In this document: in pieces, positions 17,332-63,116 of the stretch
Layout: each line of letters begins with the position of its first letter
How positions within the stretch are numbered: the stretch's first letter is position 1
Assembly (NCBI RefSeq): GCF_036711975.1
Contig: NC_091971.1
Span: 15,631,501-15,695,500, forward strand
Reading direction: 5' to 3'
From: Onthophagus taurus
Taxonomy: Eukaryota; Arthropoda; Insecta; Coleoptera; Scarabaeidae
Length of the DNA stretch: 64,000 nt
Program-made: the position numbers and the translations under genes
The notes under the pieces: model-generated
Told to the model about the DNA's origin: nothing
Databases searched by the model: none
The model's input: only the letters and a program-made list of their open reading frames with translations

Positions 17332-18370
<1,039 letters not shown>

Positions 18371-23480: not shown

Positions 23481-26400
23481 TTAATCAAAGAGACCGAATC
23501 CCATATCATCATCTTCAGATTCGGATTCCTCTTTCTTTTCTTCCTTGGCCGGAGCAGCAGCAGCGGCCGCTGGAGCTGCTGCAGAAGCAGCTGGAGCGGC
23601 GGCGGCAGCAAACTTACTTGGATCCTTAAAAAAATAATATTTTGAAACTATTTCCCACAAAACTAATTTATAAATTAAAAAATAAAATAGTTCAGAAGCG
23701 TAGCAATTTCATTAATGTTGCATATTGGGGGGTTCCGCTATTTCTAGCACCCAATATGTGATCAACACAATCAAAATGGTTCACTCATCACATTAAAAAA
23801 ATATTTTAAAAAGTATAAAAATAAATATAAATTACCTTGATGTATTCTTTAATTGTTGTAGCTTCTTTAAATTCAACATCTGTAACTGCAGCAAGAGCCA
23901 AAAGATTTTTGAATCCATTGGCAATGCTATGTGGAGCAGATGCAACAGTTGGATAGCCAATGCTCAAACAGACTGAAGCCAAATTAGCAACGCCGACCAT
24001 AAATCTTTCCCTAAGATCCTCTGGTTTTATATCCAAAATTTCCGGGGCAAAAATAGTTCCTGAATCGTAAACTTGTTCAACAATTAAACCATAAGAAAAC
24101 GGAGAAATATTCAACATATTTAAAAGAGTGGCTTCAGAAGCACCAACTTTATCGCCGGGCTTCAAAATATGCACATCATTGATAATTTCAATTGTACCCT
24201 TGGAAATCTTGGTTGGGATGGAAAGAGCTTGGAAGAAAGATGTTTTTTCTGGACCCAACCCGGTGTTTTGGGCGGGAATGATGACAGAAAGTGGGGCGAT
24301 GGCGCCGGGACGAGCTGGGGCACGGACTTTGTTTTCTAACAATCTATCGCGAACCTCAACGAGATCGCCGCGGGTAAATACAAAACCCACATTGCCCTTG
24401 ATGTGCGGCAAGACCTTTTCTAAAGCTGGATTTCTTTCCAAATGCCCTTTAATAGCCTTGCGCATCATGGTGTTTTTGCCCATAAGTACGACAGCGCTAC
24501 CCCTGAGGGACATGCGAATCTGCTGCATTTGCTTCGAGCCGACATTGTCAGCGCCCACAATAAAACACTTTGGATAATCTTCCAAAAGTTGCTATTAAAA
24601 AGAAAAAAATTAATTAATTTTTCTTATTTTGATGATGAAATAAAATGTGGAAGAATCTTGTAATTATCAGATTTATATTCCACATTGTCCTTCCAAGTTG
24701 GGGGGTTCAGCTATTTCTAGCACCCAACTTTTAGAAGTACTTAAGAGACGAAAAATTAATCATCACTATTAGAAATCTCAAAAATATAGATAAGAATGGT
24801 AGTAGACATTTCAAATTTTTTTGGCGATTTATTTCACTTAGAAGAGTAAAAGCAAAAGTTGTTGGTACAGTAAAAGACATTTTAATTACAGTTGACAGCA
24901 AAAACCATATTCGAACAGTACAAACTTTAACCATTAAGAAAATTATACATTTGGAATAACACTAATACTTTCTTGGAGGCAGGTTTGCTTAACAATAGCA
25001 CTTAGACACTTCAGCATCGATTTTAGTCCATTCTGCCTTTAATGCTATTTTTAAGTCTATTAAGTTATTGTAATATTTTAATTTCTTCTTGAATATTGAC
25101 AATAGGATTAAGATCTGGGCTTTATGATGGTGTTTTGAGGTGATCTGGAAAGTTGTACACAATCCAAAGACTCGAATCTAGCATGGTATGCTTCGAATCA
25201 TTATCCTGTTAAAAGATAAAATCTCGATACATCCCAGTTTTTCTGCACATTGCTCAATTATATTTCAAAATGTTGTTACACCCCTTGCAGTCAATAATCC
25301 AACTAAAAAATGAAGATTTCGGACTCCTGCAGATGAAAAACATCCCCATAATTCCAAACTTCCACCACACTTGAATGTAGGTGTCTGATTATGTGGATAT
25401 ATTTTTTCTGGCCAAATTCTTACTCGTCCAGTCGATATTTTTATATTGAGTTTGGTCTCATCTGTGAAAATTACCATTTTCTAGAAGTTGAATTGTAAGT
25501 AAGGTACTTTTTTGCTAAGTGTTTGTCTAGCAAATTTAAAACACATAGAACTGGAGAAAAGAAATAATGAGAAGAAAATTACTCAGGCTTATTTTGCTGA
25601 ATGTTCCACATCCAAATCAAAAGATGTTCAACTTATAGCGATGTAATTTCCGCTGATATACCTCTATAGAAAATGGGCAACAAAAAATTGGTATTGTTCC
25701 TAGAATCATACACAGAGTACAAAGTACCATCGGAAAATACATTTCGCACAAAATATATTAAGAAACTTTACAAAATTACCATAGACCACATACAGAAGTG
25801 CATGAACGGTCGCTCTTTAATAATAATAATAATAATAAGTTTATTGCCACATAGTTAATACAAGAGAAAAATAATATATATGTATACATAAACGAATAAG
25901 TAATGCATGTTGACAAAAGGTCAGTTTATCGCCAAAGGCGATGTCTTCCAAAAGACCCAACCAGCAACGTAAGTTAAAAAAAAATCAATATGGCTATATA
26001 AATAATTCAACATTTAAGCAAAAAGAAGAAAAAGAGCAAAGAGGAAAAACAACACAACGAGTACAGTTGATAAAGAGGAAGAGAAAGAAAAAGAGGAGAG
26101 AAGCAGGCGATATTAATAGTTAGATTCCGATAATTGTAATGATAATAGATAATCCCTTAAGCAGACCTTAAATGTCAGAAAACTACGAGTGTTGCATATT
26201 TTCATGGGTAAACTATTCCAAAGCTTTATAGCCTGCACCGTGAAAGATCCATGATATCTCTCATGGACTGAGTCTCATCAGACTGTGCTCTAGTAGGCAG
26301 ACCGCGAGACGACATGAATTGAAAGTTCGTGTACAAGTATCCTGGGGTCCGAGAAGAAAGTATCTTATACAGCGTTGTCAGTATACGGAATGATCTGCGC

Positions 26401-28905
26401 TTTTAGACAGTCAACATTTGAAGGTGATTACGATATTGCGTAACATGGTCGTACTTACCCAGGTCAAAAATAAAGCTTTTTGTAGATTTTAATCGACGAA
26501 ACAACAGATGCGACAGGAAGATATGTGGCAAATGTCACTATTGGTATTTTGATTCATGATGAGTTGCTCACTAAACAACAATTTTTATTTCGTGCTTGAT
26601 ACAGCGAATCTTTTCGATAATTCTATTAAGATTTTGGGTTCGACTTTCAACAGAGACATGATTTTACTCTTTGTATCAGATGCTGCTCTTAACTTGCACT
26701 TAACTTGTCTTACACACGGACTTCATCGAGTTTGTGAGCAAATTCGAGGTGTGTACACTAACGTTGACCGGCTTATCGTCAATGTGAAAAAAGTATATTT
26801 AAAAGCGCCGTCAAGAGTAGCAATTTTTAACGAAATAGTGCCTTGTCTTCCTCCATAACCGGTAACAACTCGCTGCGGAACATGGATTGAAGCGACAAGC
26901 TACTATGCCACTAAGTTCGAAATAATTGGGAATGTGTTTGATGCATTAGATGAAGACGACGCTGCGTTAATCAAAATTTCAAAGGACCTACTAAATGACA
27001 ATACAATAAAATCAGTCTTAATTTTCATTGCATCAAATGATGGCTTCCTTAGTGAATCAATAAAAACATTGGAAACAGCAGGGCTTCCGCTTTCTACATA
27101 GGTTGAAGTAGTGATACAAGCTCTGAACATGCTATTCGCAATAAATCTCATCATAGATACAAAAGGATTATCTATATTTAATACTATAAGTACATACTTT
27201 ACAAAAAATAATATTCCTTTGAATAATATTGTTGCATGTGCTACTGATGGAGCACCATTTGAAGCAGAAAGTGCCAAATGTTTTATGTATTCATTGTGTA
27301 CAGACATCTTGTAGGAAAATATTTAAGTATGAGTCTTCATTCATCATTAACTTTAATAATTAGAGCCGTGAACAAAATCAAATCCAATGCAAAGAACGAT
27401 AGAATATTTCGGCAGCTTTGTGAGGATAATAATGAAGATTTCATCAAGTTACTTTTGCACACAGAAGTTCGATGGCTGTCAAAGGGTACATGTTTGGCTA
27501 GATTTGTAGCATTATATGAGTGTCATACAATTTTTGGAAAGTAATGATGAGACCAATCTGTGTCAACAATTAAAAGCAGTAAAGAATGATTCCTTCTACT
27601 TGGCAGATATTTTCAAGAGAGTTAACGATATCAATTTGCAGCTTCAAGGAGCTAATAGCTTTGTTCCACAGCAAGCGGTACTCGTCAAATGCAATTGCAC
27701 ATGTCAAGTAATGTCACATTTCAGCGGATTTCATTGCATTATTTAACTGTGCAATTGCATTTGACGAGTCCACGACGAGTCAAACCGCTGGTTGGAACAA
27801 AGCTAATAAAACTCTTATAGAATGCCAAAGTATTGTGCCATTATTTATTGACAAGCTTCAAGTACTTAATCATAATCTATTGAAGAGAGAATTTCATCAG
27901 TTTCCCCATTTATCATGTATAAAAGATGATGTAACTCCAGAGGATTTCAGAGTTTTTCAATGTATAAGAATATGATATGAACAGAAGATTGTGTTTCTGT
28001 TTTATTTTCTATTTCTCTTTTAGTTTTTATATCATTTTTCATTTACTTTGTTTAACCTCACCTACAGATTTAAAAGATATCCATATTTTAATATTTAATT
28101 TTTTATAGAGCATATTTTCATACTTAAGCAGCATATTTTGACTCTTATGGAACATTTTTTAAGCGCTCAAACTACCATTTTGGAGCATATTTTTGGTTGC
28201 CCTACTTATGAATGATTTTCTAACAGTATTAAAACTTTTAAAACCAAGTTTTTAATATACTTTTGTGCTGTTGAAGGTTAACATAAACACCAAAGACCTA
28301 TTCAAGACTGTTGTAGCCAGTGCCACACCACTTATGGTAGGATCCTTAGGGATTTGATGACATAGGGATGAATGCTTTCTTCTTATTAGCATCAATCAAT
28401 TTACATTTCATAATGCTTTGTTAACTTCACTTTTTATAATTTTACACCACATATTGGGTAATAGAGGAGCTGCATTTCATTATTTTTAAGATTTCAAGCC
28501 AAGATTTTCGTTTTATATGAAATTTTATTATCAGTTTACTTCAAAAGTTCAATTGACTTCCTACCCACTTTGAATTTTCCGCAATTTTTAATAATAATTC
28601 AACTGACTGAAGTTTTTTGAAAAAAACAATGCTCAACAATCAGAATGGGGACAAAACACAACTAAAAATCTTGTATAACAAAAATACAATCTTGCAACCT
28701 ATTCGAATATAGTTTTTGCTGATAATTGTTAATAAAATGCTCTTTCGCCTACAGTTTTCGAACTGTATAGATAATCAAGACTTTTGCTTTTACTCTAGTT
28801 TTCGGTAGGTGTGTGAATACAGATTTTGCATATTATATGTATAAAACTTACGATTAGTTTTAAGAAATAATTGGATTTCCAGGTTGCTTTGTCCTCCCTA
28901 CCCAT
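23481..28905 (-). CDS. RpLP0: 60S ribosomal stalk protein P0 (uL10)
   Basis: Base of the ribosomal stalk: it binds the GTPase-associated centre of 28S rRNA and carries P1/P2 dimers that recruit elongation factors. Coding exons on the minus strand: 28905-28852 ([14 protein letters not shown]...), 24591-23836 and 23624-23481, joining in frame to 317 residues, the usual length. Visible: '[14 protein letters not shown]', '[11 protein letters not shown]', 'KGNVGFVF', '[20 protein letters not shown]', an Ala-rich hinge, and the conserved acidic end [13 protein letters not shown]. Introns are 4260 nt (filled with transposons) and 211 nt. A further 5'UTR intron is supported by donor TTG|GTAAGT at 29158 and acceptor TTTCGCAG|TT at 28942. 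Each of the two coding introns holds a snoRNA-like segment. A start at the TTG near 24585 is rejected because the true N-terminus lies in the distant exon. Confidence 0.97.
23692..23791 (-). ncRNA. Candidate C/D-type snoRNA in RpLP0 intron 2
   Basis: On the minus strand a C box GTGATGA (23791-23785) and a D box CTGA (23695-23692) bound 100 nt. The D box lies 68 nt upstream of the 3' splice site, the spacing known for intronic C/D snoRNAs in animal ribosomal protein genes. The centre (23757-23722) is a hairpin: outer stem ATATTGGG/CCCAATAT and inner GCTA-GAAA-TAGC. The terminal stem next to the boxes is weak. It pairs with the similar segment at 24667-24766. The target is unknown. Confidence 0.65.
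24667..24766 (-). ncRNA. Candidate C/D-type snoRNA in RpLP0 intron 1
   Basis: On the minus strand a C box GTGATGA (24766-24760) and a D box CTGA (24670-24667) again span exactly 100 nt, and the D box lies 76 nt upstream of the exon 2 splice acceptor. The central hairpin (24730-24695) keeps the inner GCTA-GAAA-TAGC and the run GAACCCCCC of the intron 2 copy, but the outer stem is AAGTTGGG/CCCAACTT: both arms changed together. The flanking sequences, where guide elements would lie, differ completely between the copies. A CTGA inside the hairpin (ACCC side) could act as a D' box. Confidence 0.65.
24940..25490 (-). mobile_element. Tc1-type transposase remnant in RpLP0 intron 1
   Basis: The minus strand encodes '[14 protein letters not shown]' (the DE catalytic block), '[20 protein letters not shown]' and, in a shifted frame, '[20 protein letters not shown]' with the NDSK and PDLNP regions decayed, ending in '[13 protein letters not shown]'. 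This is the C-terminal half of a Tc1 transposase, dead. It lies in the long RpLP0 intron, about 170 nt upstream (in the gene's sense) of the snoRNA-like segment. Confidence 0.8.
25820..26470 (-). mobile_element. LINE 3' end with TTA repeat tail
   Basis: The minus-strand 3' end is GGCAATAAACTTATTATTA followed by more ATT units (25821-25846). Upstream (26130-26470) the minus strand reads '[19 protein letters not shown]', LINE C-terminal sequence. The Lys/Arg-rich plus frame at 25941-26123 is low-complexity 3'UTR, not a gene. It is inside RpLP0 intron 1. Confidence 0.65.
26466..27990 (+). mobile_element. hAT transposase remnant (BED-finger / DUF659-like)
   Basis: Plus-strand frames in series encode '[20 protein letters not shown]', '[17 protein letters not shown]', then, in a second block, '[18 protein letters not shown]' and '[17 protein letters not shown]'. 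'DETTD' and 'HTEVRW' are landmarks of hAT transposases of the domesticated ZBED/SCAND3 type. The two blocks overlap poorly (27060-27120) and may be two different copies joined. Many stops. The segment 27660-27790 contains an inverted pair around 'gcaattgcacatgtc' / 'gcaattgcatttgacgag'. Confidence 0.8.
27991..28840. other. RpLP0 intron 1, no recognised element
   Basis: AT-rich intronic sequence. 'agcatattttc' style repeats near 28105-28195 may be the subterminal part of the hAT element. Nothing else is supported. Confidence 0.4.
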
Positions 28906-54449: not shown

Positions 54450-57125
54450 AGTGTCCGTTATAGCTCAATAAAAATATACAACAATCTAGCGCTGAATAAC
54501 AAATAAAACTAGACTAACACTAGTACTAGACCTAGAACTAAAAACATTCCGTTTAGTCGTGCGTCTCTTAAAACATAGAACTACAAGTGTAAAACTAGAA
54601 CTAACACTAGACCTAGAAAGTATCTAGTTCTAGGTCTAGTGTTAGTTCTAGTTTTACACTAGCACTATCACTAGAACTAACACAAGACCTAGAACTAGAA
54701 TAATGGGAAGACGCATGGCTAAACCCGAAACTTTCTAGTTCTAGGTCTAGTGTTAGTTCTAGTTTTAATTTTAATTCAGCGCTATATTGTTGTACATTTT
54801 TATTGAACTAAAAGTAGAACTAACACTAGTCCAAGAATTAGAATCATTCGGGTTTAGCCGTCTTTAAAGACGTGCGGTTAAACCCAAATGATTCTAGTTC
54901 TTGGTCTAGTATTAGTTCTACATAGATAACAGTGCTAGTGTAAAACTAGAACTAACACTATACCTAGAGCTAAAATCATTCGGGTTTAGCCGTCTTTACA
55001 GACGTGCGGCTAAACCCAAATGATTCTAGTTCTAGGTATTACATTACATTACATTACATAGAATACATATCGGGTAGGCGGACCAACCAACCTTGCACCG
55101 CGACCCTAAGGATCTATTGTACCCCGATAGATATCATTATCAAATTTCACCGTGCAGTCCAATGCTCTTAACGAACATTAATACCTTGCTCGGCGAAAGG
55201 TCATTCAGATCTTTTGAGGAGATAAACTGCGACCCAAAAATCGAGAATCTGATACGGTTAACGGCAGGGCAGTGGCATAAAACATGCTCAACCGTCTCTG
55301 CTTCCTCCGCACATAGTCGGCATTCAACATCGTCGGCTAAACCCAACAAGTTGAGGTGTGCTTTTAATCGGCAGTGCCCAGTAACAACACCCATTAGAAC
55401 TTTTATGCTACTACGGGCAAGTCCCAAAATACTCCCGGGTTTGACAGTGGCGATGTTAATAAACACCTTAGCATGTTTCATTCCAGGAGAACTGGTCCAC
55501 AGTAGGCGAAGTCTCTCTTCAGACCACAGTCCAATCCTATATTTGGCCATCGCAAATGATACACCAACTGCTGGTTCCGGTCCCACAAAGGCTTCAGCGC
55601 TGCCATCTCGTGCTAGCTTATCTGCCGCTTCATTGCCAGCAACACCAGAGTGACCCAGGACCCAGATCAGAGAGACTCTGTTATCACAACTCAGTGTGTT
55701 TAATGTTCTCTTACAATCATTAACCAGAGCCGACACCGTTTTCACGGCTTGCAGCGCCTGGAGAGCGGCTTGACTGTCTGAGAAGATTCGTACTGTCATG
55801 TTCTTCACCCCTCTTTCAAGAAGGATTTTAGCACCCATGTCAGTAGCAAATACTTCCGCCTGGAATACAGTACAGTACGTACCCAGGCTGTAGGCTTGCT
55901 TAATTCGAGGTGTCTGGCAGTATACTCCTGCTCCTACCCCTTCAGGCGTTTTTGATCCATCTGTGTACAAGCAAATGTCTGCCCGAACCAGAGAATTTTC
56001 ATTTTCGATCCAGGACTGCCGCTCAGGCAGTACAATCTGGTATCGAGCATTAATCACTGATAGTGATACCGCCAAATCTGACGGCATTGATAGCACAGTA
56101 TCAGTGCTTATAATGTCTTCCGCAGCCCATTGGTAGGACATGTCGGAACAGTTTTGAGCATATTGCTTAAATCTGTAAATGGTTGTTCTAGCCACTTTCT
56201 CTATATGCAAATGCAGAGGAGATAGGCCAAGCAGAACCTCCATTGCTAGAGTTGGCGTTGTGCCTATCGCACCAGAGATTGCCAATCCAGCTACTCGTTG
56301 AATTCGTGAAAGTTTACTGATAGCTGAAGTCTGTCGGACTTTCCTATACCAGGCTGCTGCTCCGTATGTGATCATAGGTCTAACCACAGTCACATAGAGC
56401 CAGTACAGTCTTTCAGGGGTAAGACCCCAACTTTTTCCACAAAGACTGCGACAAGTCCACAAGGATAGTCTAGCTTTGTGCAAAACTCCCTGCAAATGTC
56501 CATTCCATGACAGGGTTTTGTCTAGGATTACTCCTAGATATTTGACTTCCTTTGAGAAAGGAATTTCTTCACCTTGGATAGTTGGGCGGATTAGTCCATC
56601 CAACTTTCGCTTCCTGGTGAAGGGCTAGTTCTAGGTATAGTGTTAGTTCTACATAGATATCAGTACTAGTGTAAACCTAGAACTAACACTAGACCTAGAA
56701 CTAGAATCATTTGGGTTTAGCCGCACGTCTGTAAAGACGGTTAAACCCGAATGATTCTAGTTCTAGGTCTAGTGTTAGTTCTAGGTTTACATAGTGTTAG
56801 TTCTACATAGATAACAGTGCTACTGTAAAACTAGAACTAACACTGGACCTAGAACTATTTAGATTTAACTGTAATTCAGCGCTATATTGTTGTATATTTT
56901 TATTGAACTAAACGTAGAACTAACACAAGATCTAGAATAATTCGGATTTAGCCGCACCTCTCTCAAGACGGGTAAACCATTGAACCCATGAATGTTTCTA
57001 GTTCTAGTATTAGTTCTAGTTTTGCACTATCACTAGAACTACCACAAGACCTAGAACTAGAATAATTCGGGTTTAGCCGTCTTGAGAGAGGTGCGACTAA
57101 ATCTACTGCTGTAGATTTCGTAGCA
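54450..57125. repeat. Second hairpin array (same family as 21398-22455), split by a LINE
   Basis: The two parts (54450-55039 and 56625-57125) repeat the same A hairpins ('ctagttctaggtctagtg' with its complement) and B hairpins ('cgggtttagccgtctt' with 'gcggctaaaccc') seen at 21.4-22.5 kb. A further shared block 'gcgctatattgttgta' plus 'tttttattgaac' occurs at 54778, 56878, inverted at 54464-54497, and at about 22200 in the other locus. The CTACAGAATAACC termini of the first locus were not found here. Confidence 0.85.
55040..56624 (-). mobile_element. LINE copy B, 5'-truncated, with intact C-terminal frame
   Basis: A continuous minus-strand frame from the 5' truncation point (56624) to its stop near 55140 encodes about 494 residues of an I/LOA-type LINE ORF2. 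It begins after the RT core at 'PFTRKRKLDGL', then 'VKYLGVILDKTLSW', 'RPMITYGAAAWYRK', RNase H with 'LYTDGSKTPEGVGAGVYC', 'FQAEVFATDMGAKIL', 'FSDSQAALQAL' and 'GHSGVAGNEAADKLARDG', and a terminal CRLCAEE...HVLCHC motif. The 3' end is a run of tgtaa units (plus strand 55040-55061). A 14-bp direct repeat ctagttctaggtat (55026-55039, 56625-56638) flanks it. No disabling mutation is seen, so insertion is recent, but the RT and the 5' part are missing. Confidence 0.95.
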
Positions 57126-62371: not shown

Positions 62372-63116
62372 TTAATTAGAGAGTAATTTCTCTTTGAAGG
62401 CCTCATTTTTTGGCCGCCATATCTTTGGTGGTTTAATCTTTCCGAAAATTTCAAATTTACTCTCGTTACTGAAAAATATATTTTTCCAAAAATCTAGAGC
62501 TTCGATTTGATACTTTTTTGCGAAATCAAAACGTTTCTGTTTATTTATTTTAGATATATAAGGCTTTTTACGGGGTGTTCTTCCATGTAGGCCAATTCTA
62601 TGAAGTGTTCTTCGTATGGTACTTGAACTTCTGGATGTGCTTGCTATCTGCGATATGTCGTTTGCTAGTTTAACCGCACTTGTACATGGATTATTCTTCA
62701 CTTCTCTGACTACAGCTCTCGCCTGTGCTTCTGTAAGGTGCCTTGGTCGTCCAATGAGTTGTAAATCCGCTACAGTATGGTGTCTTATGTATTTATCCAA
62801 AAAGGGTTACGAGCGAACAAAAAAGTTCTGAGCAAACAAATTTTACAGCCTGTATAGCATGGTTGCCGCCGCCCGATCAAAGTCAAAATTGGTTCAATGA
62901 TTTTGCTTGATATTTGTTTACCCTCTACCAAATTTCAACGCTCTACCATAAATGGTATTGAAAATATTTAGAAAAATGTGTTAAAATTTTTGAACTTTGA
63001 TGGCCCATATCTTGACCATTTGAAGACTTTTATAATAATTTTTTTCACGAATCGTCATCATTTTTGCTCTACTATATGAGGTTAATTTTATGCCCCGAGT
63101 CACCGGAACACCCTGT
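62372..63116 (-). mobile_element. Tc1-type transposon, partial
   Basis: The frame 62800-62372 encodes the N-terminal half of a Tc1 transposase: paired-like helix-turn-helix 'RPRHLTEAQARAVVREVKNN', 'SSSTIRRTLHRIGLHGRTPR' (second DNA-binding helix with the GRTPRKKP hook), then 'FFSNESKFEIFG' (aligned with the FSDES catalytic block, Asp replaced by Asn). The right terminus at 63100-63116 is 'ccggaacaccctgta', a Tc1-style end next to TA. The left half is lost against the hAT remnant. Confidence 0.85.

Follow-up and report, generated by a model that had tools for sequence, protein, structure and literature searches.

Two successive introns of the Onthophagus taurus RpLP0 gene carry a shared hairpin framed by C and D boxes: candidate intron-encoded box C/D-type RNAs

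Both introns within the coding sequence of RpLP0 in the beetle Onthophagus taurus carry, on the strand of the gene, a C box and a D box set around a hairpin with a nearly identical 30-nt core. With moderate confidence, and from the sequence, we interpret them as two paralogous intron-encoded box C/D-type RNAs of about 105–110 nt that would derive from RpLP0 pre-mRNA and whose function would lie in the hairpin. They would be unusual members of their class, C/D RNAs conserved in a central hairpin instead of in their guides.

The window analysed here is a 64,000-nt stretch of contig NC_091971.1 (positions 15,631,501 to 15,695,500 of the forward strand; assembly GCF_036711975.1). RpLP0 lies on its minus strand, with splice sites placed by sequence reading; the coordinates of the gene and of the intronic features are given in Table 1. 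The two introns bearing the units are those within the coding sequence, and an acceptor-like CGCAG is also present upstream of the RpLP0 ATG. A search of the 290.8-Mb genome with the central-exon protein returned one match at E 0.001, and the same protein gave 18 pattern-matching stretches in viral_contigs and 102 in genome_contigs, none of which was confirmed. Elsewhere in the window, three open frames resemble by eye an adenylate-kinase piece (17963–18370, plus strand), the tail of a retroelement reverse transcriptase/RNase H (55140–56603, minus strand) and a piece of a Tc1/mariner transposase (62372–62800, minus strand).

Table 1. RpLP0 exons, introns and intronic features, in window positions.
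Feature	Position	Strand	Remarks
RpLP0 coding exon 1	28852..28905	-	ends before GTAAGT
First intron inside RpLP0 coding sequence, 4260 nt	24592..28851	-	hosts preceding-intron unit; splice sites by sequence reading
C/D-like unit, preceding RpLP0 intron	24667..24766	-	C box to D box = 100 nt
C box GTGATGA, preceding RpLP0 intron	24760..24766	-	
Extended hairpin, preceding RpLP0 intron	24687..24740	-	lower stem, AA bulge, upper stem, asymmetric loop, GCUA-GAAA-UAGC
Shared 30-nt hairpin core, preceding RpLP0 intron	24698..24727	-	N = T
D box CTGA, preceding RpLP0 intron	24667..24670	-	exon 76 nt further
RpLP0 central coding exon	23836..24591	-	
Last RpLP0 intron, 211 nt	23625..23835	-	hosts last-intron unit; splice sites by sequence reading
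C/D-like unit, last RpLP0 intron	23692..23791	-	C box to D box = 100 nt
C box GTGATGA, last RpLP0 intron	23785..23791	-	
Extended hairpin, last RpLP0 intron	23707..23775	-	lower stem, AUCA bulge, 9-bp stem, asymmetric loop, GCUA-GAAA-UAGC
Shared 30-nt hairpin core, last RpLP0 intron	23725..23754	-	N = G
D box CTGA, last RpLP0 intron	23692..23695	-	exon 68 nt further
RpLP0 last coding exon	23481..23624	-	DPSKF ... DMGFGLFD stop

The block common to both introns is TTGGGTGCTAGAAATAGC-N-GAACCCCCCAA, identical at 29 of 30 positions. An earlier note on this DNA had described a central block shared by the two segments and put its length at 36 nt; the block is there, but 30 nt fits best. The same note held that the sequence around the block is not shared, and the flanks are indeed alike no more than chance. 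It did not mention that the shared block folds as an imperfect hairpin, capped by GCUA-GAAA-UAGC, with U opposite NGAACCC in an asymmetric loop and a stem that extends into the non-shared sequence. By inspection, the asymmetric loop may alternatively be drawn as a GGGU/ACCC pairing with two bulges.

The extended hairpin of the last intron, folded as a 77-nt stretch, has a free energy of -21.0 kcal/mol (z -3.50) that none of 200 shuffles equalled, and that of the preceding intron, folded as a 64-nt stretch, reaches -18.2 kcal/mol (z -2.58; 3/200 shuffles as stable). For hairpin segments of about 50 nt, the gene strand gave z values of -3.62 and -2.58 as compared to -2.45 and -1.06 for the opposite strand. 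When the boxes are included (121 nt), the stretch in the last intron has a z of -3.00, with 1 of 200 shuffles as stable, and that in the preceding intron is not unusually stable (z -1.55; 14/200). Beyond the shared block the arms differ between the introns yet pair within each copy, adding four contiguous pairs in the last intron and three in the preceding one. Four arm pairs can be aligned. In two of them both partners have changed (A-U to G-C; U-A to A-U), a third is identical in the two introns, and the fourth is missing from the preceding intron. The arm extensions score 7.0 and 6.2, values that shuffling the arms reproduces in 2.1% and 2.9% of cases, and control cross-pairings of arms between the introns score 5.0 and 2.1. 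Arms that are complementary but different argue for function at the RNA level, albeit modestly, and the covariation rests on two sequences.

The 22-base core was found, with up to three mismatches, at two sites in the 290.8-Mb genome, both of them RpLP0 introns, and its reversed control at one, all of these counts being lower bounds. A frame in which the upper stem is left free, with one mismatch, matches three genome sites: both RpLP0 introns and one site on C11. The C11 site (L032; G000:C11:17685432-17685457) is a one-mismatch match to GGGT-N4-GAAA-N5-GAACCCCCC with unpaired upper arms and is probably there by chance. Neither a pattern search nor a two-sequence covariance model, which returned its source sites only, located a further copy of the core elsewhere in the window, and the core was not found in viral_contigs or genome_contigs. 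Because it occurs at two places, both in RpLP0, the core does not resemble a mobile repeat and appears to be gene-specific. No Rfam family matched the window at threshold. A permissive Rfam search of positions 23600–24900 gave nine matches, all under their gathering scores; the lowest E value (0.36) belongs to a molybdenum riboswitch model and is taken as chance. The element is unreported among the matches listed in our searches of the literature on RpLP0/P0 regulation, L10 leaders and intronic snoRNAs, which is not proof of absence.

As for the boxes, the earlier note had reported GTGATGA and CTGA exactly 100 nt apart in both coding introns on the RpLP0 strand, with the D boxes 68 and 76 nt from the 3' splice sites. 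Both observations are confirmed, with the span counted from the first base of the C box through the last base of the D box and with exons beginning at 23624 and 24591. Both C boxes (GTGATGA) conform to RUGAUGA and both D boxes (CTGA) to CUGA, the box C/D snoRNA consensus given in an excerpt of PMC8162545. By itself, such a box pair is common and not rare. GTGATGA-N89-CTGA occurs at 126 genome sites, the RpLP0 pair among them, versus 68 for the reversed control, and GTGATGA and CTGA with 90–110 nt between them occur at 2493 sites versus 889. These counts are inflated by an array on C2 (G000:C2:27981823-28032642) in which GTGATGA-N89-CTGA occurs at 19 places among the matches listed; outside that array RpLP0 has, by eye and among the matches listed, the sole close same-strand pair of such sites.

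The position of the boxes relative to the hairpin is more informative. The distance from the start of the C box to the hairpin core is 40 nt in one intron and 42 nt in the other, and that from the start of the core to the D box is 56 and 54 nt, such that the box offsets match between the introns. When flanks are drawn at random from a first-order model of the RpLP0 introns, 1.3% of draws have an RTGATGA in the 70 nt upstream and 23% have a CTGA in the 70 nt downstream; the probability of both boxes in both copies is 8.8e-6, or 7.3e-8 with offsets agreeing within 2 nt. This model is a little generous; with the box counts of the window, 49 RTGATGA and 357 CTGA over the two strands, both probabilities become some two to three times larger, at about 2e-5 and 2e-7. 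Since other motifs would also have drawn notice, these probabilities are post hoc and are discounted here 100- to 1000-fold; after that discount the coincidence of boxes around an independent hairpin anchor remains notable. A softer test, of words common to the flanks of the two copies, is less striking: little except the C box is shared there. With offsets within 2 nt, the longest common word of the 60-nt upstream flanks is GTGATGA itself (7 nt, a length reached by 6.8% of 500 shuffled pairs) and that of the 60-nt downstream flanks is 5 nt (reached by 48% of shuffles), and a 7-mer at a matched offset in either flank is seen in 11.8% of shuffles. The flank, arm-pairing and random-flank computations used intron ends that were up to 2 nt off.

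The units share with the intron-encoded box C/D snoRNAs of ribosomal-protein genes the perfect boxes, the sense strand, the ribosomal-protein host, the presence of related copies in successive introns and probably the position, 68 and 76 nt before the exon. They differ in conserving a central 30-nt hairpin and offering no convincing guide, in having no box-adjacent terminal stem, and in the 100 nt between the boxes, which exceeds the usual C/D snoRNA length of 60–90 nt (excerpt of PMC8162545). The absence of such a stem applies to both units in a fold search beside the boxes. The best pairing near the boxes is 2 bp in the last intron, with 2 nt skipped on each side, and 4 A/U bp in the preceding one, with 1 and 2 nt skipped; the last intron also has a 7-bp A/U external pairing. 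Cofolds of the 20-nt flanks are no better than shuffles, 83 of 1000 being as stable in the last intron and 248 of 1000 in the preceding intron, whereas a stable terminal stem is present in most expressed human C/D snoRNAs according to PMC10234308. Predicted folds leave both C boxes partly paired, pair bases 1 and 2 of the D box in the preceding intron, and leave the stretch before D mostly paired (mean unpaired 0.35 and 0.29). By eye and outside the predicted fold, GTGGAA/TTCCAC around the preceding-intron D box (minus-strand window 24683-24647) could form a 6-bp stem, which by enclosing the D box would compete with a C/D kink turn.

The suggestion in the earlier note that the intron distance is typical of snoRNAs finds partial support in the literature. 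The distance of the RpLP0 D boxes may fit the usual position described in the excerpt of PMC8162545, some 50 nt ahead of the branch point, but this rule is relaxed for human intronic snoRNAs, most of which keep a greater distance from that point than had been supposed (PMC10234308, in part). Fly has 27 cytoplasmic ribosomal-protein genes that are snoRNA hosts; the excerpt of PMC2246290 that reports this does not mention RpLP0 among them. In the permissive Rfam search the best C/D match was the SNORD13 covariance model (RF01210, snoU13), which scored 14 bits where its gathering score is 46 (E 4.9). SNORD13 is a C/D RNA outside the methylation guides with a role in 18S acetylation; it is of similar length, and the weak match to its full-length model falls on the preceding-intron unit. 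Complementarity to the 3' end of 18S (last 75 nt) is ordinary, with best duplexes of 6 and 8 nt that 183/200 and 104/200 shuffles equalled, and we reject SNORD13 (U13) identity on that finding and the 14 bits. H/ACA snoRNAs have two hairpins with an H box (ANANNA) and end in ACA; a clear ACA tail was not seen here on inspection by eye, and a miRNA hairpin was rejected by inspection, the stem being short and interrupted and the conservation apical.

The guide of a C/D snoRNA is a stretch of some 10 nt or more upstream of D or D', and orphan members have no known one. The earlier note had suggested comparing the guide regions next to the D boxes with rRNA and snRNA, and no match above the null was obtained at D. 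The D-box guides were equalled by 26 of 60 and 25 of 60 shuffles and the D'-like box by 57 of 60, in a test whose targets held non-rRNA flanks of the rDNA pieces L028 and L029 and in which L020 was wrongly cut. Against random intron 20-mers, 22/99 and 88/99 were as good as the D-box guides, and the last-intron unit taken whole was equalled by 21 of 40 shuffles in ungapped score; in these later tests L020 was dropped and starts were trimmed, and the L028 piece may overrun the 28S end, least so in the duplex-energy test. In the preceding intron, a C-side stretch of 19 nt, of which the first 3 nt are part of the C box and the end is overlapped by a D'-like CTTA, is complementary to conserved 28S AGGGGCGAAAGACTAATCG except for one mismatch, four of the pairs being G-U. 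Only 2 of 40 shuffles reach the ungapped score of this match, but 34 of 100 do as well as the C-to-hairpin stretch by duplex energy, so it is not counted. For the remaining stretches 97/100, 76/100 and 58/100 shuffles were as good by duplex energy. The 28S region of AGGGGCGAAAGACTAATCG is methylated in yeast and human. The D guide of the last intron weakly matches 28S CGTAGCGATT, about 35–40 nt upstream within the same conserved region. The D+5 rule predicts the methylated base from a D-box guide; the D+5 base here was not matched to a known methylated one, and CGTAGCGATT is not counted as a target.

The rRNA targets came from the same genome, and the snRNAs, entered as approximate sequences, were used only in the random 20-mer comparison. 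With the 3' part of 28S pieced together from insertion-interrupted copies and the snRNAs approximate, a guide target may have been missed. The 28S copies examined in this genome (L014, L015, L019, L021, L022 and L028) are interrupted or cut, the 28S match ending at model position 2327 of 3401 in L019 and L021 and at 1455 in L015. A 108-base rDNA probe matched in two types of piece, 1-73/74 and 61-108, which overlap by about 14 bases, presumably as expected for an R1-like insertion with target-site duplication.

These data bear on the choice that the earlier note had left between duplicated guide RNAs that diverged in target and one RNA with its function in the core. A related boxed pair on the gene strand is supported, and function in the core fits best, while no guide clearly beat its null against rRNA or the approximate snRNAs. 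Classical 2'-O-methylation guides, in which the copies of a duplicated C/D snoRNA would direct different rRNA or snRNA sites and the hairpin would space C'/D' from C/D, are nonetheless consistent with the boxes, the intron position and the ungapped score of the AGGGGCGAAAGACTAATCG pairing, and the composite 28S and approximate snRNAs weigh on the search. Yet the D-box and D'-like matches are ordinary, as is the duplex energy of the C-to-hairpin stretch, and a mere spacer hairpin would be unlikely to stay 29/30 identical; we consider such guides quite unlikely. Slightly less probable again is that there is no function at the RNA level, and that a local duplication, a mobile-element remnant or a DNA-level site such as a transcription-factor palindrome happens to have boxes beside it. 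Just two copies are known, in one genome, and the abundance of boxes fits such an accident, but a recent duplication would leave alignable flanks, where the flanks are at chance likeness, and the complementary yet different arms modestly favor RNA. A mobile element would be expected to give more copies than two and is rejected, the 22-base core having been found at two genome sites only, both in RpLP0.

A stronger contender, though still an unlikely one, is that the hairpins act in cis within RpLP0 pre-mRNA, where they precede the 3' splice sites of the central exon and the last exon. One or both would be bound by a protein, P0 itself being the simplest choice, an excess of P0 would slow or alter splicing, and the C/D boxes would be a coincidence. 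The core is found in RpLP0 only, twice and on the sense strand, the central-exon protein has its one match in the genome, and the block begins 130 and 136 nt before the exon despite introns of 0.2 and 4.3 kb. An invariant loop with exchangeable stems would also be typical of protein sites. Structures in an intron of RPS13 and the 5' UTR of RPL12 are thought to be autoregulatory (excerpt of PMC8216456, the text of which contains neither RPLP0 nor RPP0), and bacterial L10(L12)4 is autoregulated (PMC4538822, in part). The RpLP0 hairpins are like the intronic autoregulatory structures of RPS13 (PMC8216456) and RPL7B (PMC12311795), both as given in excerpts, in being structured non-coding RNA in a ribosomal-protein pre-mRNA, and differ in that one gene has the motif twice, with C/D boxes around each copy. 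The bacterial L10(L12)4 leader (rplJL) would be a regulatory analogue if P0 bound its own intron hairpin, but the hairpins of RpLP0 have no Rfam match and are intronic instead of in a leader, and by inspection the core lacks a visible kink turn and unpaired UAA, both of which the bacterial L10 target has (PMC4538822, in part). Action in cis also leaves the matching box offsets unexplained, and the core is no more rRNA-like than shuffles (196/200, 126/200 and, antisense, 193/200 as good against own-genome rRNA), so mimicry of the P0 site on rRNA is unsupported. Locally, the core agrees with the GTPase-centre stretch over 5 and 8 nt at best, figures with no null of their own. It is possible for a C/D element to affect its own host in cis (PMC11028025, in part), such that a C/D RNA and a cis-acting element may both be true.

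If the preferred interpretation as box C/D-type RNAs is correct, the C/D motif would recruit the C/D core proteins during splicing and these would protect the ends after debranching, leaving a stable small RNP from each spliced intron. The C/D core proteins are 15.5K, Nop56, Nop58 and fibrillarin. The sequences at the guide positions differ and have no convincing target while the GAAA-capped hairpin is frozen, which suggests that the hairpin is the working part, a docking site for a protein or an RNA. Its frozen GAAA cap and NGAACCC side may form the docking surface, with the boxes acting mainly as a stabilising and localising module; the partner, as a guess from the host gene, could be a ribosome-assembly partner. 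The C/D step of this scheme draws on the box statistics and the docking step on the conservation pattern.

A more speculative variant, which we regard as a long shot, is that the sole task of the C/D RNP is production and protection of the RNA, whose frozen hairpin binds P0 or the P-stalk, such that splicing of RpLP0 would yield a sensor, or a sponge, of the protein it encodes. If true, the bacterial L10 leader would have a eukaryotic counterpart that acts from spliced introns. If the units are real, they are C/D-box RNAs in which selection acts on a central hairpin instead of a guide, two of them hosted by the gene of a ribosomal stalk protein. They would then either add to the few C/D RNAs that are not methylation guides or represent feedback control of P0, the base of the stalk, in animals.
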